In this document: piece after piece, positions 285-17,864 of the stretch
How the letters are laid out: the number at the start of each line of letters is the position of its first letter
Position numbering within the stretch: the first letter of the stretch is position 1
Assembly: GCA_947626985.1 (NCBI GenBank)
Contig: CANQUG010000026.1
Span: forward strand, 1 to 46,526
Length of the DNA: 46,526 nt
Direction of reading: 5' to 3'
DNA from: an uncultured Lachnospiraceae bacterium
Lineage (GTDB): Bacteria > Bacillota > Clostridia > Lachnospirales > Lachnospiraceae
Program-made: the position numbers and the translations under genes
Notes under the pieces: generated by a model
The model's database searches: none
What the model was told of the DNA's origin: nothing
The model's input: the letters and a program-made list of their open reading frames with translations, nothing else

Positions 285-1373
285 TTACAACAGCAAATTC
301 ATATATTCTTCATATTCCACTTTATATATCAAATTCCCATTAAACAAACTAAGCCAAGATAAAAAATCAAAATTTGAAAGTCTGTTTCTTTCTAGATCCA
401 TTCTGGTAGAATAACTTCCATCTCTCACATGTTCGCAATACCTTGCGTCATATTTTGCCCAATATAAACGAATCATCGGCTTATCAATCAATATCATACT
501 GTTTTTTAAAAGCGTCCAATATCCCAGAATAGAATCTTCACATATTTCACCAGTACTCTCAAAAAAGCTTTTTATGATATAAATCTCCGCTGTTCCTTTT
601 TTCTCCGCCAACATTTTACGAGTCATGTTCACTCTGTCAATCGACCGCCTCTGATTAAGCGGAATATCTAGCATTTTTTTTATATCTTTCCAATATCCAA
701 AATATAAGAAATCAGAGATATAATATGGTTCAAACATACTGCCATATTCTGTTGCCAAAGTAACAATTCGGTAATTTAGACTTGATGATCCTGTAACCGG
801 ATACTCATTCAACAAATTTTTCAAAAAAGTAAACGCATACGGATGGCTGATTCTCTGATCAGTCCTAGTCTTGCAGATATAATCCGCTTTCATTTCAAGC
901 GCCTTCCTTATCCCTGCCTGCATGGAAACAATCTGATAATTGATATTTCCAATACCACCATATTTCGGCGGTTTGGAAACGACCACAATCGCTCCGGTCT
1001 GTTTCAAACGCTGGATCGTTTCCTGGCTCTCTGTTTCCCATGTCGATACTATAATAAGAAGGTTCCCTTTCATCTGCCTATAATAGAGAATCGTATTAAC
1101 TGTAAAATCATCTGTATGCAGTATTGGTCCCTGTAATACCACAGCAATTAATTCCGTTTCCGCTATAGCCGGCAGCTCACATTCTATATCTGGCTTTACC
1201 GGCCGCAAATGATGGGACACATATAAACCCGTGCCTTTTTCAATATTACGGCAGAACTGTATCATGAACTCTTCTATGATTTTCTTTTCACCATAAAGCT
1301 TTTCCGCCAACTTTAATGGAAATAAAAAAAGGGCGCTCCATACAGAGACCAGTTTTCCAAACAATACTTTCAT
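285..1373 (-). CDS. WavE-type polysaccharide glycosyltransferase
   Basis: The product of about 362 residues resembles the WavE lipopolysaccharide-synthesis family: an early AVVLQGPI stretch, then a TILYYR segment, a STWE motif and a KTRTDQR motif typical of these putative hexosyltransferases. It probably adds a sugar to the growing repeat unit on the inner face of the membrane; the acceptor and donor are unknown. The frame can be extended to a TTG at 1391, but the ATG at 1373 with GGAG upstream (spacing about 12) is the more likely start. It follows wecC by about 21 bases and is probably co-transcribed with it. The family is best known from Gram-negative LPS loci, but members also occur in Firmicutes polysaccharide loci. 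Confidence 0.75.
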   Translation of the reverse strand: MKVLFGKLVSVWSALFLFPLKLAEKLYGEKKIIEEFMIQFCRNIEKGTGLYVSHHLRPVKPDIECELPAIAETELIAVVLQGPILHTDDFTVNTILYYRQMKGNLLIIVSTWETESQETIQRLKQTGAIVVVSKPPKYGGIGNINYQIVSMQAGIRKALEMKADYICKTRTDQRISHPYAFTFLKNLLNEYPVTGSSSLNYRIVTLATEYGSMFEPYYISDFLYFGYWKDIKKMLDIPLNQRRSIDRVNMTRKMLAEKKGTAEIYIIKSFFESTGEICEDSILGYWTLLKNSMILIDKPMIRLYWAKYDARYCEHVRDGSYSTRMDLERNRLSNFDFLSWLSLFNGNLIYKVEYEEYMNLLL

Positions 1374-1394
1374 TACATACTTCAACTCCAATAA

Positions 1395-2621
1395 TTATAG
1401 ATGATAAACACCTGGTATGTCGCAAATATTATGACAGTCAAGCACTATTTTGTTCTTTAACTTATACATATTCTTCTTAATCTCATCATGCTTAACCATA
1501 ATAACGACAAAATCTATACTGTTCAAAAATTCGTCAAGATTATGATATTGGTTGTCAACAATATCTCTTTCAACAAATGGATCATAAACCTTTAATACAG
1601 GAGCAAGATGTCTCTTTTGGCTGTCAATTAGCTGCAAAGTAGGAGACTCTCGACAATCATCTACATTTTCTTTATAAGTTAAACCATAGAGTCCTATACG
1701 CGAAATATTGGTTATACCTCTTTCATCCATAATGGAAGCGATTCTCTGCAAAACAAAATCCGGCATACTATCATTGGTCTTCATAGACTCATCAATGACT
1801 TTAGCCAAACTCGGATAATCTCCTACAAGAAACCACGGATCCACACTAATACAGTGTCCACCCACTCCCGGACCAGGTTGTAGAATATTTACTCTGGGAT
1901 GCATATTGCATATCCGAATAATTTCATACACATCCATATTATCATGTCTACATATTTTCGCTAATTCATTCGCAAAAGCGATATTGACCGCCCGAAATGT
2001 ATTTTCCACCACCTTCGTCATCTCCGCAGTTCGTATATCTGTAACTACAATTTCACCTTGACAAAAAGAAGAATACAGATTCCGAATTCTCTCCCCGACA
2101 CTCACATCATCAGCACCGATTGTCCGGTTATTATGAAGCAATTCATATATCATGTTACCTGGTATAATCCGCTCCGGAGCATGAACTAACTGAATATCAC
2201 ACCCCGTTCTGCGTCCCGAATTTTCAATGACCGGTCTGATATACCTATCAATCGTTCCCGGTGAAATCGTTGATTCTATCACTATAGTTGCTCCTGTGGG
2301 ACATACCGCTAATACAGATTTTATTGCTGCAACTACAAAGCATGGATCAACCTTCTTGCTAAACTTATCATATGGCGTCGGGACAGAAACAATATATGTA
2401 TCCGTAATCTGATATTCTGAACTGAACCTGATCCCGGCCGATACCGCCGACTCAAACAATTCTACCAGACCGGTTTCCTTAAATGTTATATGACCAGCGT
2501 TCAGGGAGCTTACGAGCCCTTCATTATAATCCGTACCAACCACTTCAATTCCATGACTTGCCATCATTAAAGCAGTCGGCAACCCAATATAACCCAATCC
2601 TATCACATTAACCACTTTCAT
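1395..2621 (-). CDS. wecC: UDP-N-acetyl-D-mannosamine dehydrogenase
   Basis: Full-length nucleotide-sugar dehydrogenase of 408 residues. It oxidises UDP-ManNAc to UDP-ManNAc-uronate with two NAD+. Seen in the sequence: N-terminal Rossmann motif GLGYIGLP (residues 8-15), IESTISPGT (about 115-123), the HAPERIIPG segment (about 147-155), a conserved Lys in TKVVENTFRA, and the catalytic Cys257 in GGHCISVDPWF. These fit the WecC/MnaB branch better than UDP-glucose dehydrogenase, though substrate choice within this superfamily is hard to read by eye. An AGGA ribosome site precedes the ATG. It implies that the polymer contains an acidic N-acetylmannosaminuronate residue. No UDP-GlcNAc 2-epimerase is in view, so that enzyme must be encoded elsewhere. 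Confidence 0.9.
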   Translation of the reverse strand: MKVVNVIGLGYIGLPTALMMASHGIEVVGTDYNEGLVSSLNAGHITFKETGLVELFESAVSAGIRFSSEYQITDTYIVSVPTPYDKFSKKVDPCFVVAAIKSVLAVCPTGATIVIESTISPGTIDRYIRPVIENSGRRTGCDIQLVHAPERIIPGNMIYELLHNNRTIGADDVSVGERIRNLYSSFCQGEIVVTDIRTAEMTKVVENTFRAVNIAFANELAKICRHDNMDVYEIIRICNMHPRVNILQPGPGVGGHCISVDPWFLVGDYPSLAKVIDESMKTNDSMPDFVLQRIASIMDERGITNISRIGLYGLTYKENVDDCRESPTLQLIDSQKRHLAPVLKVYDPFVERDIVDNQYHNLDEFLNSIDFVVIMVKHDEIKKNMYKLKNKIVLDCHNICDIPGVYHL

Positions 2622-2670
2622 ATCCTCGCTTTCGCTTTATTGTATTTAAAAAATCTTATCCTTTTGAATT

Positions 2671-2814
2671 CTAAAGCTGATAAAAAACTATATCTACCAT
2701 CGGCCTTACCACGATAATCCAAAGAACCGGAAGACAGTCCAAAGCCAAAGCGACCCCCACATTTCTTAACAGATATATCAACAGAAGCATCACCGTCAGA
2801 CCACATATTTTCAT
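2671..2814 (-). other. Short hydrophobic open frame, possible membrane-protein remnant
   Basis: A 47-codon frame upstream of wecC on the same strand encodes an almost entirely hydrophobic peptide (MLLLIYLL, then VLWIIVV). There is no clear ribosome site. It lies between the decayed transposase and wecC, so it may be the broken start or end of a flippase or acyltransferase lost when the transposon inserted. Assignment to a family is not possible from this length. Confidence 0.18.
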
Positions 2815-2949
2815 ATTATTTTTGAAAATTCTAATGCATTATCAGCAATCTCGTAAAGAAAAATGACTCTCTAAATTTTAGATGGGTTCTTTGGATTTTG
2901 AGGAAATTCCCCCTACATCCCCTTGATTCTGAGGCATTCTACATAAAAC

Positions 2950-4056
2950 CGCTTCTGGTGCCTCACCTTTCGCTTATCCTTTTATCCTATCCGTACCCTT
3001 TGCCCATTATTGTTCTTCTCTCCCGCATTTCTTTTCTTCAGACTCTGCGGCGGTTCCATTGTAGTAGTAACACCAACCTATCCCGGAAACACGGCCATAC
3101 ACCCCTGACTCGCCGAAACCCTCATTTCCAACGCCGTCCAGCATAACCACCCCACCGAACTTTTCATCTCTTATCCCAGACTCAGCATCTCCTCGCACCT
3201 TTTCCTCTCCATGTGGGCTAGGCTCAATGAAACCGTCGCCTACATCCATGATATGACGGTAAATACCTTTTCCACCAGCGACATTGTCCTTTCCGTGATG
3301 AAGGAGTATGTCGAAAATTAAGAAATCAGGCTTCCCCAGACAATCTGCATTGATGAGTTTAATAGCTTCTCCAATTCCAAGAACCCTGCACGGAAACGCT
3401 ACAATACTTAAATACCACTGTATCATTTCCGATGCCAATCGTGATGTTGTCCTTGACATCCTCACCACCATTTACCATGACTTCCTCAGGGATTATTTCT
3501 TCCAATTTCCTCTCGAAGAGCGCTCCAAAGTCCATTTCATCTGCTGTGATATACACGCCGACTTTGCCACACCCACTTCTTCCTGTTTTCCCAAGGCCGT
3601 CATCTGCTATGACAACTTCCATGTCATCCGCCTCCTGAACCAGCGTATGGATGACCTGTGAATCTGCATCCAGAATGCGTTCCGCTTTCAGAACGATATC
3701 CTTTCTTATATCATCCTCAAGCATTCCTCCCACCTGCTCAACACCGCAGATCAGAATCAAGAATCCTATTGGAAAAGCCATGCCCGGCAGAAGTTCCAGC
3801 GGCTCGATAAGATTTTCGAGCTTTCCCCGACATTCGCTGCATGTATGATGACCTCCAGAACTTCCATACGATCTTCCACAAGTCACAGTTTTCAATCCAG
3901 TGCCTCCTGCTCTCCAAATGGATCAGCCAATATCTGTCTTCCGAAGTTTCGGAACTACATCGGGCCTCCAAGAGCACCCGCCAGGCCCGCAAAGAAATCC
4001 TTCTTGCCTCCGGGCTGGGTCCGCATGGAACAATCCACTTGTTCCCTCACCGGTAA
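2950..4056 (+). pseudogene. Decayed ISL3-family transposase
   Basis: No single frame is intact, but a continuous transposase can be followed across at least five frame changes or stops. It has a weak Cys-containing segment about 3045-3080, then LAETLISNAVQHNHPTEL (about 3108-3160) running to TSDIVLSVMKEYVEN and a stop at about 3321, then LPQTICIDEFNSFSNSKNPA, then YHCIISDANRDVVLDIL with a DDE-type core ending in VICYDNFHVIRLLN (to 3661), and a C-terminal part with LDKIFELSPTF and FHKSQFSI to about 4056. The spacing of IDEF and the Asp-Phe-His motif matches ISL3 transposases. It faces opposite to the polysaccharide genes and sits between wecC and a GT4 gene. Long minus-strand frames across it are shadows. 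Confidence 0.8.
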
Positions 4057-4117
4057 AAAATAAAAACAAAGAGGCTTAACCATGAATGAGAAAAACAAAC
4101 TAAGACAAGGTTAACTC

Positions 4118-5242
4118 CTACAGCGTTTCATTCTTACACTCCCTGATATAGTCCACTATAGGTCGTACTTGGAAGCTCCAACTTAACCTTCTTTCCGCAT
4201 ATTCACGCATTGAGGATATGATTTCCTTCTTTCCATATTTAACTACTAAATTTCTATAGAATAATAGAATGTCATTTATATTTATTGGTTGATCTGAAGC
4301 CTCTATCGTCAATGCATAAGCAAAATCTTCGGTGAAATCCACATCGTCATATGCTTTTATAAATGGAATGCCCCTTGCGCAATACTCTCTTGCCTTCAGT
4401 GTACTTACCTGTTTCAAATCAATTCTATGAATACCTAAACTTGCAACAGCAATATCCGCACTATTAAAAATCTGATCCAGTTCTTTACCACTCTTCTTCC
4501 CGTGAAATGTTACATAATCAGCAGTTCCCGTTTGTCTAACTAAATCTTTATATTCAGATAAAGCGGGACCTTCACCCACAAAATCAACCATAACGGTTAT
4601 GGAAAAAGATCGCGCATAATATAATTGCAAGCCTTTAATTAGGCGATCATACCCATGCCAAGGAGCGAACATCGCCACTGCAACTATATGGATTACATTC
4701 CTTTGATTATCATTTGTTTTTCTTACTGGAATTGACGTTAAATTTATTCCATTCTGTGTGCGTATGGTTTTTATCCCCCAAATTGACTTATGCTCAGAAA
4801 ATGTAACAATTCGATCAATATAATGCACATATTTCTTTCTATTAAATCGATCTTTTAACAAATGTATATATCTTTTATATATTTTAGTAAATTCCGTATC
4901 ATAAGGAAAGGTAGGTAATTCTAATATTAAATTTATATTTGGATTATTCTGTTTAATTTTCCTTAGCAAACGAATAAAAGAGCCTGTACAGTATGGTGGC
5001 CTTCGTATATAAATATAATCTACATCTTCAAACTCACGTTTATAAGTCCAAGTTGGGTTAATATTAATAAATGGTATACGAGACAATATTTTCGATATAA
5101 CCGTATGTGTTTCTAACGCCGTTATTAGGGAACAATTCAAATCCCACTCATTAAACGCTTCTATCTGAGCTAAAACTTTTTTTTCAATACCTGTCGGTGA
5201 ATTAATGTCAATATCCTTATAATACAAAAATATTCCTTTCAT
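4118..5242 (-). CDS. GT4-type glycosyltransferase
   Basis: A 374-residue retaining GT-B enzyme. The N-terminal half is divergent; the C-terminal half shows HIVAVAMFAPWHGYDRLI (about 185-202, the start of the donor-binding domain), FVGEGP, VTFHGKKSG, and then KAREYCARGIPF, the glycosyltransferase group 1 donor-site region. It probably transfers a sugar from a nucleotide donor to the lipid-linked repeat unit in the cytoplasm. The start codon overlaps the stop of the polymerase gene by four bases (ATGA), so the two are translationally coupled. Downstream lies the decayed transposase, which separates this gene from wecC. Donor and acceptor are unknown. Confidence 0.8.
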   Translation of the reverse strand: MKGIFLYYKDIDINSPTGIEKKVLAQIEAFNEWDLNCSLITALETHTVISKILSRIPFININPTWTYKREFEDVDYIYIRRPPYCTGSFIRLLRKIKQNNPNINLILELPTFPYDTEFTKIYKRYIHLLKDRFNRKKYVHYIDRIVTFSEHKSIWGIKTIRTQNGINLTSIPVRKTNDNQRNVIHIVAVAMFAPWHGYDRLIKGLQLYYARSFSITVMVDFVGEGPALSEYKDLVRQTGTADYVTFHGKKSGKELDQIFNSADIAVASLGIHRIDLKQVSTLKAREYCARGIPFIKAYDDVDFTEDFAYALTIEASDQPININDILLFYRNLVVKYGKKEIISSMREYAERRLSWSFQVRPIVDYIRECKNETL

Positions 5243-6447
5243 ACCTGTTCCGTCTTCCTTTTTCTATAATAATTCTGTTTCCTTTTATCATAATAAAGAC
5301 ACCATGAAAAAAACATCCAAAAACTGGGGGCCAACCAATATGAATTGCTAAAACTCAACATTGGCATCGAAAGACATAAAAGCACCAGCCCCAGCATTTT
5401 ATCTCCACTTATTATGTTTTCTCCTTTATTCAGAAACACTAGCAATCCTTTTCTCATAAAATATGCAAAAATCAAAAGACCAATCACACCAAATTCAGAT
5501 AAAACTTCCAATATAAATTGATGCACATATACATTCTGTCCATAGCTCAAATACAATCGTTTTTCATAGCCTCCAACACCACTTCCCAAAATGGGATGAT
5601 TTTTTATATTCTCAATAGCAACTTCATAAAGTGGCATCCTTGCATTATTCATTCCCTTAGACGTAAGTGCCAGAGAAAACGTTTTATCTAGTGCTGGTAA
5701 TTGAATCCCTAGCTTTTCCACGATTCCCTGAATACACATCAAGATTGTATTCAGATTTTCAAAGCATATAAACCCTATCAAACTGAACGATAATAATACC
5801 GTTATCGTTGTTCTAAAACTCTTTAGCCTCATTAATAATAAAGAAAACGCAAAAAAACAAATTGCCAATATCGCCCCTCTTGTTCCACAATCGAGCAAAA
5901 GGAAATATAGTGCTAATAATGTCATAATTACTGAAATAAATCTATCCAATGCCGAATTCCGATGTATCGTCTCAACTATTCCAACTACTGCAATAGAATT
6001 AAAAGCATATGCCATTCCCATCTGGAGACTCCAATAATCTTTACTTTGAAGAAATACAGATCTATAAACTAATATATATACTATTATGTATATAATAAAA
6101 ATACTCTTAACATAAGCAAACATCTTCCAATAATCTATATCAAATGATCCAATATAAATCGCTGTTAGACCAAACATAATAAAATGTAGTAAATAATTCT
6201 GCATAAACATAGCGCCATTATATATATACGCTCCCATGAGAACTGATAGTATTACCTCTGTTATAACCACTGCTTTGTAATAAATCCGACGTGGCAATCC
6301 ATTATTCAAAATAGTACATACAAGAAGTATTCCTACAAGAATTATACTAATGTTTGGTATCTGAATAAAACTCGTGATAATACCACAAATATGTGTTTCC
6401 GCAAGTAATGCCGCATATATAAATGAATTAAATCTTTTTTTCTTCAT
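5239..6447 (-). CDS. O-antigen ligase/polymerase-like membrane protein (Wzy-type)
   Basis: A 402-residue very hydrophobic protein with about ten membrane segments and one large outer loop between about 230 and 300. The loop carries HPILGSGVGGYE and is followed by VHQFILEVLSEFGVIGLL, the usual Wzy_C/RfaL signature of an H..ILE.L.E.G.IG pattern. It most likely joins repeat units outside the membrane. Wzy proteins diverge strongly, and a ligase role cannot be excluded from sequence alone. A GAGG ribosome site lies 5-8 bases before the ATG. It follows the GT2 gene by 18 bases and overlaps the next gene. Confidence 0.82.
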   Translation of the reverse strand: MKKKRFNSFIYAALLAETHICGIITSFIQIPNISIILVGILLVCTILNNGLPRRIYYKAVVITEVILSVLMGAYIYNGAMFMQNYLLHFIMFGLTAIYIGSFDIDYWKMFAYVKSIFIIYIIVYILVYRSVFLQSKDYWSLQMGMAYAFNSIAVVGIVETIHRNSALDRFISVIMTLLALYFLLLDCGTRGAILAICFFAFSLLLMRLKSFRTTITVLLSFSLIGFICFENLNTILMCIQGIVEKLGIQLPALDKTFSLALTSKGMNNARMPLYEVAIENIKNHPILGSGVGGYEKRLYLSYGQNVYVHQFILEVLSEFGVIGLLIFAYFMRKGLLVFLNKGENIISGDKMLGLVLLCLSMPMLSFSNSYWLAPSFWMFFSWCLYYDKRKQNYYRKRKTEQV

Positions 6448-6465: not shown

Positions 6466-7293
6466 CTACATGCGAAGTCCATCAATAATCCCTTTATGTA
6501 TTGCAACAACCTTCTGCATTTTTTCTGACTCAAAGCAAAGTACTTTTATCCACTCCGCAAAAATAAATGCCGTTGTTCTCCAACATGAAAAAAAATGAGA
6601 ATATTTACGCGAGCAGTATATGCGATTCCTCACTTGATAATATTTTCTTTTGGGATTATGATTTGTCGTTCTTATTGTAAATCCTATCAATCTAAACTCT
6701 TTGATATTGCCATACTGATGAAGTAAAATCGTGTTACAATCTTGTATGATTCTATAGCCTGCATCTATCAGTCTAGCACACAACTCAAAATCTACATAAT
6801 CAATAAATAAGCGTGAATCAAAACCTCCAACTTTCAAAACTGCCTCTGTATTCGTTAATGTGCCAGAAGTAATGCATCTATCCACATCATAATATAAATC
6901 CGCAATTCTGTACGGTTGTTCCATTGAATTTCTATCTTTAATCAAAGGAGCAATCATAGCCAATCGAGGTGTTTTAATATATCGGAGATAGGACAAAACC
7001 ATATCTCGTGGACATATGGAATCTTGATCTAAAGTTAGTACCCACTCATATCCTTCTGTACTTGAAATACGTACTATTTGATTTAGCGCATTTGCTATTC
7101 CTTTATTACACCCATTATTAATGTATTCGACTTTACTATTATTTAACCACCGTGGCGATAACGTATAATTATCACTATTGTCTATCAAAATGATATGATC
7201 TACCTGAGAAACTATGGCTGACAAATTCTGTTCTAACCGTTCATTATTTGGATTATATATAACAATTCCACATGCTATTTTAGGCATTTCCAT
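6466..7293 (-). CDS. GT2-family glycosyltransferase, rhamnosyltransferase-like
   Basis: A 275-residue GT-A enzyme. GIVIYNPN (about 9-16) begins the nucleotide-binding fold, IILIDNSDN follows, and LTLDQDS (about 87-93) is the variant DxD seen in rhamnosyltransferase-type GT2 proteins. An FDSRLFIDYVDFELCAR segment (about 155-171) supplies the catalytic ED-type acids. A basic, aromatic C-terminus could bind the membrane. The start overlaps the HAD gene's end by 14 bases, with AAGGG upstream of the first ATG; an internal ATG two codons later is an alternative. Rhamnose as donor is an inference from family similarity only. Confidence 0.82.
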   Translation of the reverse strand: MEMPKIACGIVIYNPNNERLEQNLSAIVSQVDHIILIDNSDNYTLSPRWLNNSKVEYINNGCNKGIANALNQIVRISSTEGYEWVLTLDQDSICPRDMVLSYLRYIKTPRLAMIAPLIKDRNSMEQPYRIADLYYDVDRCITSGTLTNTEAVLKVGGFDSRLFIDYVDFELCARLIDAGYRIIQDCNTILLHQYGNIKEFRLIGFTIRTTNHNPKRKYYQVRNRIYCSRKYSHFFSCWRTTAFIFAEWIKVLCFESEKMQKVVAIHKGIIDGLRM

Positions 7294-9318: not shown

Positions 9319-11064
9319 TTAATTTTTTTCCTGTAGACATTCTTTATATATTTGTAAAGTTCTTTCCATAACTGCTTCAATACCATATCTTAGAATAACA
9401 CCCTTATTATAACTCCCCATATTGTTTCGGCATTTTTCATCTTTGATCAATCTCTTTATTGCCGACACATAATCCATCACTTCTGCGCAGTCACAAAGTA
9501 TGCCGCCTTTTCCATTCTCAACCAAATCTATATTTCCCCGAATCCTTGAACAGATAACCGGCAACCCACTAGCCATCGCTTCCATTACCGACACATTCAA
9601 TCCTTCCCGCAAAGAGGGCAGTACATATACATCAGCACATTGATATAAGTATTCAACATCTCTACGAAAACCCAACAAATGCACTTGCTCCCGAACGTCT
9701 AATTTATCAGACAGTTCCACGAGATATTCTTTCAACTTACCCTGGCCCGCAATTATATAATGAACATTCATATTATTCAGCTTGGCTATTGCTCTAATTA
9801 CAATTTCAAGATTCTTATTCTGGTTTAATTCTCCAACTGAAAGGAGGAGAACTGCTTTGCTACTAATCCTTAAATTCTGTAAAAGTTTTTTCCTTGCATA
9901 TAATATCAGTATCCCCTCGTATGATTCTATATCTGCATATTCAACCACTAACTGATTAACCACTTTTTCCAAATCATATTCCATCAATCTCTTATAATTT
10001 TTCTCAACTATATCTTCCATGCTACAATGGAGAGCCTTATTTATGCATGTTTCTACAGATGCTTCATCCTGAGGTTGAAACAGCAACTCATTATCGGTAA
10101 TTAACTCCCGATTTTCTCTGATATCAGAACATATCACTGGCGTTTTACATGCAATTGCTTCCATTAAAGTAACCGGCAGCCCCTCCTGTAACGAGGGAAA
10201 TACAAATAAGTCTGCTGCTTGGCACAACTCTGAAATATCTTTCCGATAACCTAATAGGAATACCTTGTTTTCTAAACCATATATTTTAATTAGACTCTTA
10301 ATCTCGGATTCCAGTTCACCAATTCCACATATAAAAAATTTAATTTTGGAATTATTAATCTGTTTTAGTGCTCTTATGACAATAGATACATTTTTTTGTT
10401 TTATTAGTTCTCCTACTGATAACATCATATATTCATCATCATGAACACCTAACTGCTCTCTTTTCAGAGATCGCTTCCCTCTGTAACTGCAAAAGCGCTT
10501 CAAATCTATGCCAACTCCAGGAATATACTCCACTCTTTTTGCCTTCAAATATTTTTTTGCTCGTTTATAATCTTCTCTGTTTATTGTAATCAACACATCT
10601 GTCCAGAAAGAACAAATCCATTCAATCGGAAAATAAAATAACCAATTTTTAAGTGGCGCTCCTTTGTAAAAATGAAATCCATGAGCTGTATACATGATTT
10701 TTACATCAAACTGTTGTCTAGCTTTAGCTCCAACAATACGGGTCAGCACACCCCCCACAGGCGTGTGACAATGTATTAAATCATATTTCTCTATAAGAAT
10801 CAGTTTTTTCAATTCTTTATAAGCAGATCGAAGCTTTTTCAATTCATACGGAGATCTGGGAAATATAATTTCATAACGCCGCACATTTAAGTGATCCAAT
10901 TCCGATTTGAATTCCTCCACGCGTCCTACGGAGGTAGTATTACCTTCAGTAAAGTTACATGCAACTGAAACTTCATACTCAAGTTTCTGCAAAATTTGTA
11001 TGTTAGGCATATTAAACTGATCTATCATGGATGCAGTAGTCGCTACAATCAATGCCTTTTTCAT
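9319..11064 (-). CDS. Glycosyltransferase with a duplicated C-terminal GT4 domain
   Basis: A 581-residue protein. Residues 1-390 make a complete EpsD/CapM-like GT-B enzyme: HCHTPVGGVLTR and TAHGFHFYKG in the acceptor half, then SVGELIKQKN (216-225) and the EX7E pair Glu294/Glu302 in SLQEGLPVTLMEAI. Residues about 390-577 repeat only the donor half: SVGELNQNKN (409-418) and a second EX7E pair Glu487/Glu495 in SLREGLNVSVMEAM. There is no second acceptor domain. This looks like a fusion of two related genes with loss of the second N-terminus, or an internal duplication. Both donor sites look intact by eye. It starts just downstream of the gene graveyard and probably adds one sugar of the repeat unit. 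Confidence 0.85.
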   Translation of the reverse strand: MKKALIVATTASMIDQFNMPNIQILQKLEYEVSVACNFTEGNTTSVGRVEEFKSELDHLNVRRYEIIFPRSPYELKKLRSAYKELKKLILIEKYDLIHCHTPVGGVLTRIVGAKARQQFDVKIMYTAHGFHFYKGAPLKNWLFYFPIEWICSFWTDVLITINREDYKRAKKYLKAKRVEYIPGVGIDLKRFCSYRGKRSLKREQLGVHDDEYMMLSVGELIKQKNVSIVIRALKQINNSKIKFFICGIGELESEIKSLIKIYGLENKVFLLGYRKDISELCQAADLFVFPSLQEGLPVTLMEAIACKTPVICSDIRENRELITDNELLFQPQDEASVETCINKALHCSMEDIVEKNYKRLMEYDLEKVVNQLVVEYADIESYEGILILYARKKLLQNLRISSKAVLLLSVGELNQNKNLEIVIRAIAKLNNMNVHYIIAGQGKLKEYLVELSDKLDVREQVHLLGFRRDVEYLYQCADVYVLPSLREGLNVSVMEAMASGLPVICSRIRGNIDLVENGKGGILCDCAEVMDYVSAIKRLIKDEKCRNNMGSYNKGVILRYGIEAVMERTLQIYKECLQEKN

Positions 11065-12605: not shown

Positions 12606-14102
12606 TCATATATTCTCCTCCTCTATAATAGTTACGGCTACTTCATCTAAATTTTTCGTACTTTTCTTTTTTTGACATAATACCTCATTTCGCTTTTCTT
12701 CTAGCTCCTTTTCTTTCATAAACCCTTCTGTGCTTTCTGGCTTTACAAGAACCTGTAATGTCATAAATATCAATTTTATATCAAGCAAAATAGAGTAATT
12801 CTCTATATACATTAAATCCAGTCTCACTTTATCATAGGCACTTGTATTATATTTTCCGTAAATTTGAGCATATCCGGTAAGCCCACCTTTCACCTTTGTT
12901 CTATACTCAAACTCCGGAATATATTTGCTATATTCTGCTGCGTTTTCCACTCTTTCCGGTCTTGGTCCTACTATACTCATATCTCCTTTAAGTATGTTTA
13001 GAATCTGAGGAAGTTCATCAATGCGGCATGCTCTTATAAAACTTCCAACCTTTGTTATCCGCGGATCTTTATCTACAGCCCGCATTTCCATACTATAACC
13101 ATCGCTTTCCGCATTTACAATCATAGAACGAAATTTCAAAATATAAAATATTCTTCCATCTTTAGTAAGGCGCTGCTGCTTATAAAATACCGGTCCGCCA
13201 TCTTCCAGTTTTATCGCTAATGCAGCTATCATCATAATGGGAGCTGTGGGAATCAAAGCAATCAGGCATAATACAATATCCATTGTCCTTTTCAGGAATC
13301 TCTGCGTAATTGTCAGACCTCTCCCTTTTACCAGAAAAAGCGGTGTATCAAACAGGCTGATATCATCCGCATTTCTTACAATAATATCTGAGATTTTAGG
13401 AACTACATAGGTACGAATTTCTTTTTGATAACAATATTTCAGAATATCATTCCTAATTTGAGCCGGGACATCATTTATAATAACAGCCTCATGATTTTCA
13501 ATTTCTTCACAGATAGCATAAAATCCTTTATCGACATTGATAAGTGTTGAAATTATATATTTATCTGATCTTGTGTCCATCTTAAATTTCAGATCAATGG
13601 CATTTTTCGTACCATAAACCATCAGCATTTTTCTGGGTACATAATTTTTATGATAAACCGCAGTAAAAATATATACCAGGATAAAAATCAATACAAAATC
13701 AATCGCTGTAAGAAAAATAACTGGAAGCGGATGAATCATTTTATTGGCAATGAGACTCAATTGAAAATATGTAATAAGATTCACTATAATAACTGCAATC
13801 CATTGAGAAATAACGACATCACTGAGTTTCAGATGACCATACTGAAAGCTGTCGCATAAATAAAAGAGTACAATTATAAGAATCGAATAGACGCCAACTA
13901 ATACAAACTTTCCATTTCCATATAGAGCAGGCATTGTAGGGATATCTCTATATTTGATTTTCCAAATATAATAATAAGCAAGCATAAGAATAATCGTCTC
14001 GAATATACTTTCCAATCTTCTTACCATATGCTTGATTTCATCAAAAGACCTCCTGTTTCTCTTTTCAAATGTAGTATCATGGAAGCAATTATTCTTCATC
14101 AT
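12606..14102 (-). CDS. Polyprenyl-phosphate sugar phosphotransferase, initiating transferase
   Basis: A 498-residue initiating transferase of the WbaP/CpsE type. Five hydrophobic segments occupy about 30-160; a Rossmann-like CoA-binding-type middle domain follows (YGTKNAIDLKF, then KISDIIVRNADD). The bacterial sugar transferase domain begins at about 265 with RFLKRTMDIVLCLIALI, then GGPVFYKQQRLTKDG, FYILKFRSM, RIDELPQILNILKGDMSIVG and GPRPER. It links the first sugar-1-phosphate to undecaprenyl phosphate. It is the first large gene after loaP, 254 bases downstream, which fits antiterminator-controlled expression. A decayed paralogue lies just downstream. Confidence 0.92.
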   Translation of the reverse strand: MMKNNCFHDTTFEKRNRRSFDEIKHMVRRLESIFETIILMLAYYYIWKIKYRDIPTMPALYGNGKFVLVGVYSILIIVLFYLCDSFQYGHLKLSDVVISQWIAVIIVNLITYFQLSLIANKMIHPLPVIFLTAIDFVLIFILVYIFTAVYHKNYVPRKMLMVYGTKNAIDLKFKMDTRSDKYIISTLINVDKGFYAICEEIENHEAVIINDVPAQIRNDILKYCYQKEIRTYVVPKISDIIVRNADDISLFDTPLFLVKGRGLTITQRFLKRTMDIVLCLIALIPTAPIMMIAALAIKLEDGGPVFYKQQRLTKDGRIFYILKFRSMIVNAESDGYSMEMRAVDKDPRITKVGSFIRACRIDELPQILNILKGDMSIVGPRPERVENAAEYSKYIPEFEYRTKVKGGLTGYAQIYGKYNTSAYDKVRLDLMYIENYSILLDIKLIFMTLQVLVKPESTEGFMKEKELEEKRNEVLCQKKKSTKNLDEVAVTIIEEENI

Positions 14103-14356: not shown

Positions 14357-14863
14357 TCAGTTCTTCTCCGCAACCTCCAGCCCTACTTGCATCTCAACTG
14401 TTCTCCCAAACATCTCCACTTCCAGATAGGCTTTCCGCTTATGCCGGTCTATCCTTCGAATCTGCTTTTCCAGTCCCGCCAGCGGCCCCTGAATGATCCG
14501 AATATTTCCGTCTTCGACTACTCCCTCAGACATCTCTACCTTCTGCTCATCCCCACCAATCTTCAGTAGCCAATCTTCTTCTCTCTGCGTAAGCGGAACA
14601 ATCTCCTTACCGGTTCCGATGAGTTTCGTAAATCCGATGACTTTCCTCAGTCTCTCACTAAGTCCTTCTATTTTATTTGTGATTATAAAAATATACCCAG
14701 GAAATAGAACTTTTTCCTGAATATGCCATTTACCTTCATATTTCTTTTTTTCTTCGTAATAGGGAATAAAACAGCGTTCAAGTATATCGCCCTCGATAAA
14801 ATTTCTACACTGGCAGCAGATGGATTCCTCTGTGCCAGTACGTACCTGCATTACATACCACAT
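14357..14863 (-). CDS. loaP: LoaP-type NusG paralogue, processive antiterminator
   Basis: A 168-residue NusG-family protein. MWYVMQVRTGTEE opens the NGN domain (1-105, with FPGYIFI at about 54-60), and a KOW domain follows (about 118-165, IRIIQGPLAGLEKQIRRID). LoaP proteins bind RNA polymerase and a leader hairpin to suppress termination across long polysaccharide operons. The start chosen is the ATG at 14863 (GAGGA 7 bases upstream); the frame is open 20 codons further up, but that part overlaps the previous gene. The upstream gene's stop overlaps the start by 13 bases. After the stop the same frame continues open for 48 codons with protein-like content (LDFSRDDVEICLYYADHNE), perhaps an eroded extension. 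Confidence 0.88.
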   Translation of the reverse strand: MWYVMQVRTGTEESICCQCRNFIEGDILERCFIPYYEEKKKYEGKWHIQEKVLFPGYIFIITNKIEGLSERLRKVIGFTKLIGTGKEIVPLTQREEDWLLKIGGDEQKVEMSEGVVEDGNIRIIQGPLAGLEKQIRRIDRHKRKAYLEVEMFGRTVEMQVGLEVAEKN

Positions 14864-15177
14864 GGAGGATTCCTCCTTTTCTGCTTTTTCATATCCAAAG
14901 GGTATGCTTCGCCATTCTGCCATATTTCAGGCAGACTTAAATTTAAAATGTAACCATCCATATTCTTAAACGCGACAAAGCGACGATTTAAGCGTATAGA
15001 ATCCTGATAACTCTCCCTGCTGCCATCTGGCTTTTGCAGGCAGATTCCGCACCATTTTCTCATTGATTGCTCGACCAACGAAAGCTCCTCTTCTATTTCA
15101 CGAGACAGAAATCTCTTTCTCTCTGGAAAGAACTTAATTTTATCAGCCATCCTGATTTTTCTCACATTCCTTTTCAC
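14851..15177 (-). CDS. Hypothetical 108-residue protein upstream of loaP
   Basis: A charged protein of 108 residues (GTG start at 15177 with AAAGGG 5 bases upstream; an ATG at 15150 is an alternative). It has no membrane segment and no motif I recognise: a basic N-terminus, a helix-prone RKRFLSREIEEELSLVEQSM stretch, then RLNRRFVAFKN. It overlaps the preceding small membrane-protein gene and the loaP start, so the three are probably translated as one coupled unit. The tight packing supports real coding. A role in polysaccharide regulation is only suggested by position. Confidence 0.5.
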   Translation of the reverse strand: MKRNVRKIRMADKIKFFPERKRFLSREIEEELSLVEQSMRKWCGICLQKPDGSRESYQDSIRLNRRFVAFKNMDGYILNLSLPEIWQNGEAYPLDMKKQKRRNPPCGM

Positions 15178-15337
15178 TCATGCCCTTTGAAAAATCTTCC
15201 TGCTCGTCTCCGTGATCCTGACTTTTTTCCATTCTTCGTTCACTTCTGGAGAGGGCAATGCACAGAAACCATTCAAATACCGCAATGAAAATCAGAAGAA
15301 CAACAACGATCAGAATTACAATGCTTTTCAGACTCAT
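15143..15337 (-). CDS. Small single-pass membrane protein
   Basis: A 64-residue protein with one hydrophobic helix (SIVILIVVVLLIFIAVFEWF, residues 5-24) and a charged tail rich in Glu, Lys, Asp and Ser. The ATG at 15337 has GGGGAAAGGG just upstream and is preferred over an in-frame start 20 codons earlier. It overlaps the next gene. No known family is evident. It may be a small bitopic partner of the polysaccharide machinery or simply the promoter-proximal gene of the loaP operon. Confidence 0.45.
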   Translation of the reverse strand: MSLKSIVILIVVVLLIFIAVFEWFLCIALSRSERRMEKSQDHGDEQEDFSKGMSEKECEKNQDG

Positions 15338-15400
15338 AACCCTTTCCCCGCCATACTGCACATTCCGCACTCTGGCACACTCTCCCGGTTTTCTCACTTC

Positions 15401-15523
15401 TCATTGAGTGACCTGTTCTCTGCAGTACTCTCTCAATTCTTTCTTATTTTTATAACTTGGAATACCCTCCCCCGCGCGTGTCCCTTTCCATAGGAGACAG
15501 TGATCATTCCCTGCGCGGAGCAT
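15401..15523 (-). CDS. Very short open frame, unknown
   Basis: A 40-codon frame (ATG at 15523) encodes a basic peptide with GIPSYKNKKELREYCREQ at its end. Ribosome site is weak. The frame is open upstream to a GTG at 15604, which would begin inside the hairpin at 15591-15617. It lies between the TnpB-like gene and the loaP operon. It may be non-coding RNA rather than a gene. Confidence 0.2.
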   Translation of the reverse strand: MLRAGNDHCLLWKGTRAGEGIPSYKNKKELREYCREQVTQ

Positions 15524-15590
15524 CTTTGCCGTCTCTTCCCGCCCCGGATATTTCCGGAACGGCCAGACACGACGGGCGGTATTCGACCCA

Positions 15591-15621
15591 ACGGGAACCG
15601 TCACTGGCGGCTCCCGTTTTT
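15591..15621 (+). terminator. Hairpin with U-tract on the plus strand
   Basis: ACGGGA-a-CCG pairs with CGG-c-TCCCGT around a seven-base loop, followed by TTTTT on the plus strand. On that strand it looks like an intrinsic terminator, but no plus-strand gene precedes it. On the minus strand the same stem would be part of any RNA reading out of the TnpB-like gene, and so could be a structural element of a guide-type RNA. Confidence 0.45.
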
Positions 15622-15714
15622 CAGCTCTCGCCTTTATAAATCAAAGCGGTCCTTATCCGCTCCAATTCCATCATTTTTCAAAATATGGTTTCCGCCGGTG
15701 TAGTTATCCCCAAC

Positions 15715-15778
15715 TGTCCATCTCCGCACCGCAGCAAGTATTCCCGGATGTCCATTCCCGCACCGCAGCAGGCATTCC
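15715..15778. repeat. Two-copy direct repeat after the TnpB-like gene
   Basis: Two 30-base units (15715-15744 and 15749-15778) match at 26 of 30 positions and are separated by four bases, a period of 34. Both contain CCGCACCGCAGCA. They begin 16 bases beyond the 3' end of the TnpB-like gene, where TnpB systems encode their guide RNA. They do not form a CRISPR array (only two units, spacer of four bases). Confidence 0.7.
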
Positions 15779-15793
15779 GCGACACAATCCTTA

Positions 15794-17098
15794 TCACCCG
15801 GAATTTCCTTCCTGAAACTGCCTTCTGCACTTCACCGCCAGGTTTCTGGCAGTATTCAGATGCCAGTTTCCCCGGTGCCCCATCCTGCAGACAAACTCCT
15901 TCGATTTCCCGTCCTTCTCCGCCAGCGGCTGACCGCATTTTGCGCAAACCGTACTCGCGCCTCCGGCATAAGACTCAATCACAATGATTCCGGACTGCCA
16001 CGCCTTATACCGCAGATAAGTGCGGACACGGAAGCTTAAGTGCAGAGGACTCCAGTTGCCCGCCCCTTTCATCACTTTCCACATAAAATCATTCCTGTAT
16101 TTGGGAAGAACGATGGTACCGGCGTGATTCTGCTCACAGAAACGGACAATTTCCCGGCTTACCTGGTGCGCGTAATGTTCCCGGAGATGCTTTAAATGCA
16201 TCCAGTATTTCCTGTTGGCGGGTCCCTCCGGAAAATCTCCCAGAGAGTCCGCGGAACGCCGGATCTTTTCCAGCAGCTTTTCACAGTGGTGGCTGTATTC
16301 CCGGCCGCCGTTGAAGAATTTCACCGCGGTCTCGTTCCCTTCCGCATCACAGATACTGGCTACCGCAAAAGCGTCTCCATTGGTAAACTGCACTCCGCAG
16401 ATATTTTCACCGTCCCGCATGCGTTTCTTCACGGGAGTAATATCCTCCACAGGTTCCTTCACAGGCACATGAAGCATCAGAAAAGGACCTTCCAAAACCA
16501 CAGAGGGAGACAGTATTCCGGCCTCCGGAGGGAATTCCCTGCCGAACAGTCTGCAGCTCATCCAGTTCCATTTCTGCCCGTCCCATACCTTCAGAGTGAT
16601 ATGCTCCGGAGAGAAATCACGGTACATCCGGCTGTAATAAACCACGGCAGAATTGATTTCTTCCGCCGGAATCTCCGCTCTGGGAACATAATGCTTTTTT
16701 CCGTAAGGGTCGTCGCCGGAACCCGCGCCGCTTTCTGTTTTGCCGTTCTCCTTCGCGCTTTCCTCAGATTCTTCCAGCATCCTCTTCCTTGTCAGAAAAC
16801 TCTTCGCCGCCGCGGTTCCTCCATTGATAGCCGCCCTGCGAAAGTAAGGCGGAACATCCTCCCAGGGGAGCGGCGTCTGCGGTTTCCTTTTTTCCTTTCC
16901 GGGAAGACTCAGAAACTCCAGAGAACAAAGGATCTCCTGGCTGCTCTGTTCCCAGAGCTCTTCATGATCCAGCAAAAGGTCGTAATAGAATTTCACGATT
17001 CCATCGTAAAGCTCCTGCGTCCTCATCAGCCATTCCGGGTGGCCGCACCGCAGCCGAAACCTGTACGTGGTGATGCTGTATCCCTTTCCGGTACTCAT
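15794..17098 (-). CDS. TnpB-like protein with an apparently inactive RuvC domain
   Basis: A 434-residue protein with the TnpB (IS605 OrfB) plan: N-terminal TYRFRL, a long helical middle, a RuvC-like second half with a zinc finger. All three catalytic positions appear changed. RuvC-I reads CGVQFTNGDAFAVAS (235-248), with Gln237 where GIDLG has Asp. RuvC-II reads GTIVLPKY, with Pro332 where IVxE has Glu. RuvC-III reads GNWHLNTARNL, with His413 where the family has Asp before xNAARN. The zinc ligands are Cys385, Cys388, Cys404 and probably His408. The frame is undamaged, so loss of the catalytic residues without decay suggests selection for a non-cutting role, as in TldR repressors. No TnpA or transposon ends are visible. 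It is transcribed towards the loaP operon. Confidence 0.75.
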   Translation of the reverse strand: MSTGKGYSITTYRFRLRCGHPEWLMRTQELYDGIVKFYYDLLLDHEELWEQSSQEILCSLEFLSLPGKEKRKPQTPLPWEDVPPYFRRAAINGGTAAAKSFLTRKRMLEESEESAKENGKTESGAGSGDDPYGKKHYVPRAEIPAEEINSAVVYYSRMYRDFSPEHITLKVWDGQKWNWMSCRLFGREFPPEAGILSPSVVLEGPFLMLHVPVKEPVEDITPVKKRMRDGENICGVQFTNGDAFAVASICDAEGNETAVKFFNGGREYSHHCEKLLEKIRRSADSLGDFPEGPANRKYWMHLKHLREHYAHQVSREIVRFCEQNHAGTIVLPKYRNDFMWKVMKGAGNWSPLHLSFRVRTYLRYKAWQSGIIVIESYAGGASTVCAKCGQPLAEKDGKSKEFVCRMGHRGNWHLNTARNLAVKCRRQFQEGNSG

Positions 17099-17270
17099 GC
17101 TCCTTTTTCCATCCCTTCAGTTCTTTTCGGCAATCCAAAATTTGATTTATATATTTTACTTATCACCTTTTGAATTTTTCCTCCCGCGCGGCCGCGGAAG
17201 GAAGGAAACGGATTTTTGCCGTGCAGAATATGCGCGTTTTGTTTTAAAAAGTGTCTCTTTTTCTTACAAT

Positions 17271-17647
17271 CTGTCGCTAATCTACCTATTTAGCGACAGT
17301 TTTTGGGAGAAGCCCTGAATTTACCATTTATTTCCGGGCTCAGAGTCGTGTCTGACCACTTATTTTGACCACTTCTGAAATTACATCGCATACAATCAAA
17401 CCCGGTGAAACACTAGATTTTATGCGGCTTTTAGGACATGAAATCTGACCACTTTTTTGACCACTTATCGCTTGAAAAAGCCCGGATTTGGCGGAAAATT
17501 GGAATAGTTTCAGCATAAAATGATGGAAATCAGGACAGAAAATACCAGAATTGACGGCTTGACAAGGCCGTAATGGGATGCTATCATAGCTTATGTCCAT
17601 AAAAAAGGCAAAAAAGGGCTGTCGCTAAATAGGTAGATTAGCGACAG
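17271..17647. repeat. Perfect 29-bp inverted-repeat pair bounding a 319-bp non-coding segment
   Basis: The 29-mer at 17271-17299 recurs as an exact reverse complement at 17619-17647. Each copy is itself a hairpin: CTGTCGCTAA pairs with TTAGCGACAG around a nine-base loop. The left copy is followed on the plus strand by TTTTT, and the right copy on the minus strand by CCCTTTTTT, so both act as inward-facing terminators. An 11-base direct repeat GTGCAGAATAT flanks the pair (17221-17231 and 17671-17681). The arrangement suggests a miniature mobile element or an insulated non-coding RNA unit. The interior carries no supported gene. Confidence 0.75.
17353..17466. repeat. Four TGACCACTT boxes in two pairs
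   Basis: TGACCACTT occurs at 17353, 17366, 17446 and 17458, all in the same orientation, as two close pairs (steps of 13 and 12 bases) 80 bases apart. Paired short repeats near an end are a habit of IS21-type elements, so this could be a relic of such an end; it could equally be a set of protein-binding sites. Confidence 0.6.
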
Positions 17648-17760
17648 CTCTTCTTTATTTCTGCCATAAAGTGCAGAATATAAGACAGATTCTGAAAAAC
17701 ACTTCTTTTCGTTTAGAATATCATGATTTTCCCGTATATTCAACCGGTTTTCTTCCGAAT

Positions 17761-17816
17761 ACCGCAATATTTCGCAAAGGGGTTGCGGTCTCCGGCGTAA
17801 AAAGGTAAACTATAAT
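17761..17816 (+). promoter_or_regulatory. Promoter region of the GH88-DUF2264 operon with an inverted repeat
   Basis: A perfect TATAAT at 17811-17816 lies 49 bases before the GH88 start codon. No good -35 box is spaced at 17 bases. Instead an inverted repeat, ACCGCAA with TTGCGGT (17761-17789), covers the -35 region, which suggests activator or repressor binding there. Confidence 0.5.
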
Positions 17817-17864
17817 AAGCGACAAAACCCCATATTTTTTTATTATTTTTTTGAGGTGACTGAA

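Follow-up and report, generated by a model that had tools for sequence, protein, structure and literature searches.

We analyzed a 46,526-nucleotide stretch of DNA from an uncultured Lachnospiraceae bacterium (contig CANQUG010000026.1 of assembly GCA_947626985.1; hereafter, the window), in which a minus-strand gene at 15794..17098 encodes a TnpB-like protein of 434 residues without its nuclease residues. This dead TnpB, which has a structured RNA of its own and heads switchable operons for surface sugars, probably acts as a regulator. Our preferred reading, to which we give a probability of roughly 0.58, is that the gene belongs to a new TldR-like clade regulating phase-variable polysaccharide operons. 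Known TnpB-derived RNA-guided regulators act on flagellin or peptide uptake. No publication on the present system was found in the open-licence PubMed Central (PMC) literature, among the matches listed. As judged from sequence, the family is dead, selected, RNA-linked, operon-linked, and phase-variable. The initial annotation, which had been made from the letters of the window, had considered an RNA-guided switch of glycan genes conceivable; its interpretation was partly supported, and it had missed the RNA and the invertible promoter described below.

The frame at 15794..17098 contained no internal stop. Alignment placed Gln237, Pro332, and His413 at RuvC columns I, II, and III, respectively, confirming the residues that the initial annotation had assigned by eye, and the zinc site was Cys3-His, with one Cys replaced by His as it had also read. 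Sequence-model searches grouped the protein with TnpB/Cas12f proteins. Four Pfam families were matched (E up to 1), among which UpxZ was absent, and the NCBIfam Cas12f2 score was 32 bits, far under the cut-off of 450. An AlphaFold2 model from a three-sequence input (mean predicted local distance difference test score, 74.4) fitted the TnpB/Cas12f fold, with Cas12f as the nearest structures over residues 7-428.

The loss of the acids was common to the family. In all 48 aligned members, one of which ends before site III, the three RuvC columns were free of acids; the Asp/Glu/Asp (D/E/D) active site of active TnpBs was not present, and 46 of the 48 had Pro at site II. Among ordinary TnpBs of the same genus, 19/19 kept Asp at sites I and III and 17/19 kept Glu at site II; L093_T (L denotes loci and G genomes throughout) was excluded from this active set since the reading frame used there is probably not that of TnpB. 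In a tree of 45 + 19 rows, a supported branch (97/99) separated the dead members from the 19 same-genus TnpBs, which were the only TnpBs compared; the program gave a long-branch warning, and L093_T, L057_15140, L083_4269, and L056_4417 were omitted from the rows. The ratio of nonsynonymous to synonymous substitution rates (dN/dS) was 0.06-0.13 across 12 pairs, a rough estimate since dS exceeded 1 in most pairs. Homologues were mostly intact, and damaged copies were few: L060 is split in two frames, a fragment lies at G000:C5:77302, and L083 has one stop. In what was covered, the outcomes that the initial annotation had named as refuting, acids in the active site after all or mostly broken homologues, did not occur. 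These results mark the family as domesticated and not decaying, despite the few damaged copies, in agreement with the earlier view that catalysis had been lost while the frame was kept. As a separate observation, L057 holds a damaged second copy (15140-16375) in tandem to an intact one; the RNA of the damaged copy can still be made out (81 bits).

The source genome carried the window gene and three further full copies, 63-83% identical to the window protein, whereas neither an ordinary TnpB nor a Y1 transposase (Y1_Tnp) was found there (assembly 97.6% complete). The search for a TnpA, whose presence beside homologues the initial annotation would have counted against its reading, covered this genome. 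In the genus sample, 15 of 64 genomes had a match, mostly in several copies, with a fragment only in two (G333 and G360). The culturable species Blautia parvula also carries one copy (L026). Matches (E<=1e-30) were further obtained in 7/299 genomes of the family sample and 2/391 of the class sample, the source genome being included in both. The second class-sample match, G736, is a member of another family and played no part in building any search model. The family search, with four candidates scored, did not list a fifth dead-TnpB locus of G736 (L229, G736:C1:3972624). No phage relative was found, one distant viral contig was matched, and a plasmid search gave distant TnpBs only.

Next to the gene, a conserved structured RNA resembling a guide-RNA scaffold was located at 15452..15636 (minus strand), within the 15400-15800 region for which the initial annotation had suggested small-RNA sequencing. 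A block of 105-185 nt was found 3′ of the stop codon in 35/44 copies by a tail pattern and inspection. In an alignment of 34 sequences, helix cells were paired in 90.2% of cases versus 69.8% after shuffling and 35-45% after sliding, and changes on both sides occurred in 16 of 20 pairs (shuffled mean, 11.0). These included the covarying long-range helix 3, whose 5′ arm GAATAC lies at 15579..15584 and whose 3′ arm GTATTC (15460..15465) adjoins the tail AAGTTAT (15452..15458; all on the minus strand), a candidate constant guide seed. The damaged copy L057_15140 was omitted from the alignment, as were L083, L084, and L086-L092, which the tail pattern had missed. The resulting covariance model R1 scored the window RNA at 108 bits, the window sequence being one of the 34 used to build it. 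Under strict filters, with 48 candidates scored per genome, R1 matched 33 places in 14 of the 64 genus genomes (E<=0.001), every one beside a gene copy or fragment. R1 was also run on L083, L084, L086-L092, L195-L198, and L060, where the RNA was kept in relatives outside the model: L084 (E=7.6e-8), L083 (1.1e-4), and L091 (0.0012), with matches at the right place in L086 and L092 at E ~0.13; a weak L195 match was not at its RNA. By eye, the long-range pair changed in concert to GACGC/GCGTC in L084 and CAACAC/GTGTTG in L091, and a related RNA block with the pair AGCAC/GTGCT was recognised in G736.

An Rfam scan of 14900-17850 gave nothing above the gathering score. Guide RNAs of TnpB and TldR proteins are normally encoded as structured RNAs immediately 3′ of the protein gene, and the position and build of the RNA found here match those of a TnpB-type guide RNA scaffold. 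In L084, the RNA occurs twice in one locus (5796-5951 and 6921-7006), the second copy ending at the contig end. Also noticed were nine TnpBs of the genus (L123-L131; 419-470 aa; seven in G359) that keep D/E/D without the zinc cysteines and whose terminal RNA resembles that of ISDra2. The dead-family RNA was not seen at nine high-copy TnpBs of the genus inspected for it, which end in a different RNA.

The genes downstream were predominantly those of polysaccharide synthesis. In 37/40 loci, the 9 kb downstream held at least one polysaccharide-cluster gene on the strand of the dead TnpB gene, and in 33/40 two or more, compared with 3/40 upstream. The 40 loci are those with enough downstream DNA, four with short downstream DNA being omitted, and the clusters counted as polysaccharide (loaP included) were our own choice from the cluster and Pfam listings. 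The exceptions were L027, L063, and L087. Sugar-nucleotide enzymes and glycosyltransferases dominated the Pfam tally of 109 downstream proteins, while the 104 upstream proteins included nine tyrosine recombinases, with other families at four or fewer each (25 of 150 families shown). Flagellin, CsrA, and Opp families were not among the 25 commonest on either side of the gene. The four fetched copies of G736 and the fifth (L229) likewise precede polysaccharide genes, which were named by reading the sequences. The initial annotation had seen glycan loci on both sides of the window gene; its downstream side held in most relatives, but the glycan-use locus on the other side (from 17856) does not characterise the family because the upstream neighbours vary.

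Upstream, inverted repeats of 29 bp, complementary at 29/29 positions, were found in the window at 17619..17647 (distal) and 17271..17299 (gene-proximal). They enclose a promoter, TTGACA-17-TATCAT with a TG, at 17559..17587 on the plus strand, pointing away from the gene (OFF). Inverted repeats were present upstream of 34/44 copies at a score reached by 0.1% of resampled sequences, although some repeats of the most distant copies (L088 and L090-L092) may be unrelated; in G736, two of four copies had them. The segments mostly measured 230-440 bp, and 1.44-1.52 kb where a recombinase gene sits between the repeats. A near-consensus promoter of the same type was found inside the segment in the 15 loci aligned for it. 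Both orientations were observed. In the source genome, the window copy, L007, and L009 were OFF and the paralogue L008 was ON, the window copy and L008 differing by a 389-bp inversion at 82% identity. Moreover, the orthologous loci L066 and L075 of two species were collinear in their flanks (92.6-96.0%), with a 1446-bp middle in the opposite orientation (91.5%). These promoters have both marks of an inverton, namely flanking inverted repeats and occurrence in either orientation. Among 25 copies in which repeats and promoter were both called, 7 were ON and 18 OFF. From the orientation of the promoter, joint expression of the dead TnpB gene, the RNA, and the polysaccharide genes is predicted for the ON state.

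Two further observations concern the segment itself. Four TGACCAC/GTGGTCA repeats in two pairs lie within it in the window (17353..17464), and pairs of GTGGTCA-type repeats occurred in most of the 15 aligned segments; TGGTCA repeat pairs recur across the genus and in G736, as well as in L195-L198, and may be recombinase arm sites. In L066 (13209-14653) and its orthologue L075, a tyrosine recombinase gene lies inside the invertible segment, which has opposite orientations in the two species.

We also searched for a DNA site that the RNA tail might recognise. The leader of the window gene contains the element GATAAGTAAAA (17144..17164, minus strand), the counterpart of the TTRGATAAGTTATAW element in related loci; three of the source-genome leaders read GATAAGTAAAA or GACAAGTAAAA, and in one large subgroup GATAAGTTATA stands in the leader, immediately outside the inner repeat. 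A 15-bp element with the pattern TKRGATAAGTTATAW occurred 21 times in the 64 genus genomes compared with once for the reversed control. It has AAGTTATA in common with many RNA tails, and AAGTTAT with the majority of them; in one TldR, guides down to 6 nt in length sufficed for repression (PMC13418256). Eight of the 21 sites were leaders of the dead-TnpB family and 13 lay elsewhere. Nine of the latter were at polysaccharide genes as judged by Pfam (L201, L204, L208, L209, and L211-L215), with no dead-TnpB copy within the fetched flank (up to 1.5 kb). Of the remaining sites, L207 lies before a phosphoglucomutase-family gene, L200 within a gene, and L202 and L218 without clear context. The 13 non-family sites were found in 7/15 genomes with the gene versus 3/49 without it (p=0.0008; a post hoc comparison of related genomes). 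A second leader pattern, GTGATAAGTWWAAAAW, gave four sites in 3/64 genomes with a control count of two; three were family leaders, and the fourth (G304) precedes genes without a recognised polysaccharide signature. Given 21 occurrences versus one in the control, mostly at polysaccharide loci, the element (TTRGAT followed by AAGTTATA, matching the tail AAGTTAT) is a candidate target. It is kept as a candidate operator and not a demonstrated target because no match extended past the seed, no exact site was found in the source genome, and the G736 tail gave the result described below. As an observation in its own right, the presence of TTAGATAAGTTATA-type elements at polysaccharide genes without a nearby dead TnpB means that this element could be a wider leader signal of polysaccharide operons.

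Taken together, the following mechanism is proposed. A phase-variable polysaccharide operon would be headed by the gene of a domesticated, nuclease-dead TnpB together with its guide-RNA-like RNA. A recombinase would flip the promoter, and protein, RNA, and polysaccharide genes would be transcribed only while this promoter, whose orientation is visible in the sequence, points inward. The protein is expected to bind the structured RNA, given its TnpB fold and the linkage of gene and RNA. The complex would then bind DNA without cutting, at short sites in polysaccharide-operon leaders, and block transcription, such that an ON operon may damp itself, its sisters, or both. RNA binding, DNA binding, repression, and cross-regulation are thus predicted activities of the dead TnpB. 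In a more specific and only tentative form, the system would give Lachnospiraceae and a related family an RNA-guided equivalent of the UpxZ of Bacteroides: the dead TnpB of the ON operon, with its short constant guide, might bind an operator shared by the leaders of other polysaccharide operons, with or without a copy of their own, and repress them, so that few or one surface polysaccharide would be shown at a time. If the proposal is true, TnpB-derived RNA-guided regulation extends to the surface polysaccharides of gut Firmicutes, RNA guidance and DNA inversion are joined in one module, and the choice of displayed surface sugar in these bacteria becomes testable.

Several results weigh against this reading. 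Both loci of G309 were ON; a strict rule of one ON locus per genome was dropped for this reason, and strict mutual exclusion is not general. R1 found neither the G736 RNA nor any RNA in L087-L090. The tail after the long-range pair is AAGTTAT or a near variant, yet its constancy in the 34 sequences is partly built in, because members were chosen with a pattern containing AAGT; in relatives not chosen by the pattern, it read AAGTTAT (L083 and L084) and AGTTAT or AGGTAT (L086, L091, and L092). An exact TTRGATAAGTTATAW site was not found in the source genome. The G736 tail word occurred at six places (control, five), five of which were RNA tails. The nine polysaccharide sites are partly dependent, as L211, L213, and L214 are orthologous and L209 and L215 lie on either side of the same gene. 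In L201, the polysaccharide gene begins 845 nt from the element. When the seed was extended, tails and sites matched no better than shuffled tails did (p=0.93). Guide matches to upstream regions did not exceed controls at 500 nt (p=0.23 for own and 0.56 for sisters) or at 1200 nt (p=0.34 and 0.29, respectively), and none was seen by eye. Across all fetched loci, 32 guide matches were counted versus 18.2 for shuffled guides, a difference to be read with the fact that shuffling disrupts the A/T runs of the guides, and one guide pattern in two genomes gave 43 and 37 matches versus 43 and 42 in controls.

One rival addresses nothing but the target and can stand beside the other readings. Here, TTRGATAAGTTATAW would be an independent leader signal, either ops-like or linked to the gene start, whose likeness to the tail arose by chance or common ancestry. 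We consider this possible, if doubtful: the element is present in three genomes without the gene, tail and element do not covary past the seed, and each precedes a gene, whereas the concentration of non-family sites in genomes with the gene argues the other way. It is rather unlikely that the protein is a cis-acting leader protein, which would bind the structured RNA in the nascent mRNA and control elongation or stability of the polysaccharide message without a DNA target. In the aligned loci, the RNA does separate the gene from the genes downstream of it, the window, L008, and L078 carry a LoaP-type antiterminator further downstream (the latter two by clustering with the window protein), and the guide searches proved no DNA target; however, the placement of the RNA is the normal one for a TnpB or TldR guide RNA, and no terminator-like hairpin was called at the RNA end on the operon strand of the window.

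More unlikely still is an inversion controller, in which the complex would bind in or near the invertible segment and bias the recombinase. The inverted repeats upstream of 34/44 copies, the tyrosine recombinases (9/104 upstream proteins), and the position of the leader element just outside the inner repeat in one subgroup are consistent with such a role, but the element also occurs at polysaccharide genes where no dead TnpB was seen (although one such site, L208, does have the palindrome of an inversion site), and no guide match to the upstream regions was found. Finally, a functionless, decaying transposon relic would account for the few damaged copies (L060, the G000:C5:77302 fragment, and L083); this very improbable reading was rejected on the strong purifying selection, the fixed neighbourhood, and the covarying RNA.

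In the window, loaP (14357..14923, minus strand; NF033641, E=1.8e-50, over the cut-off) is the first recognised operon gene. It is accompanied on the same strand by genes for an exopolysaccharide polyprenyl glycosylphosphotransferase (12606..14102; TIGR03025, over the cut-off) and a glycosyltransferase (9319..11064; two matched stretches, all shown matches being under the family cut-offs). A 64-residue minus-strand frame at 15143-15337 resembles the N-terminus of the L007 capD-like protein (27/50 identical), as if recombination had cut a longer gene just past the RNA. In L007, three similar tandem AAA-ATPase-like genes (1191-6437) lie upstream of one copy, and their relatives occur near three other copies.

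Compared with known systems, Cas12f was the best fold match of the window protein, which differs by having no acids and by a score far under the Cas12f2 cut-off. Active IS200/IS605 TnpBs are alike in fold and RNA position, whereas the dead family has no catalytic residues, and no Y1 transposase was found in the source genome. The UpxY/UpxZ control of Bacteroides capsules (PMC7315117) is similar by layout and logic, and the UpxY model has a match to the window LoaP as well, under the cut-off; UpxZ, however, acts on UpxY proteins, whereas the dead TnpB is proposed to act as an RNA-protein complex on DNA. The fliC- and csrA-associated TldRs share with the dead family the TnpB homology and fold, the loss of the RuvC residues, and the scaffold RNA downstream of the gene, and the dead genes are mostly intact and under purifying selection. 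For a guide that pairs with a repressed promoter or gene next to a TAM, as in TldRs, the candidate here is a 7-nt seed match to the polysaccharide-locus element, longer matches being negative. The likeness of the RNAs is one of layout. The two also differ in that known TldRs adjoin flagellin genes and the dead family adjoins polysaccharide genes in place of fliC, csrA, or oppF, a linkage that we count as typical of known TldR clades and not as defining a TldR-like mode of action, and in that the recombinase of the dead family is of the tyrosine type, not Hin. PMC13418256 describes hin genes upstream of most csrA-tldR loci, promoter inversions in Flavonifractor, and one Oscillibacter strain with four csrA-tldR loci and predicted cross-targeting. 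The nearest known systems are TldRs, especially these csrA-linked ones with upstream hin genes and promoter inversions.
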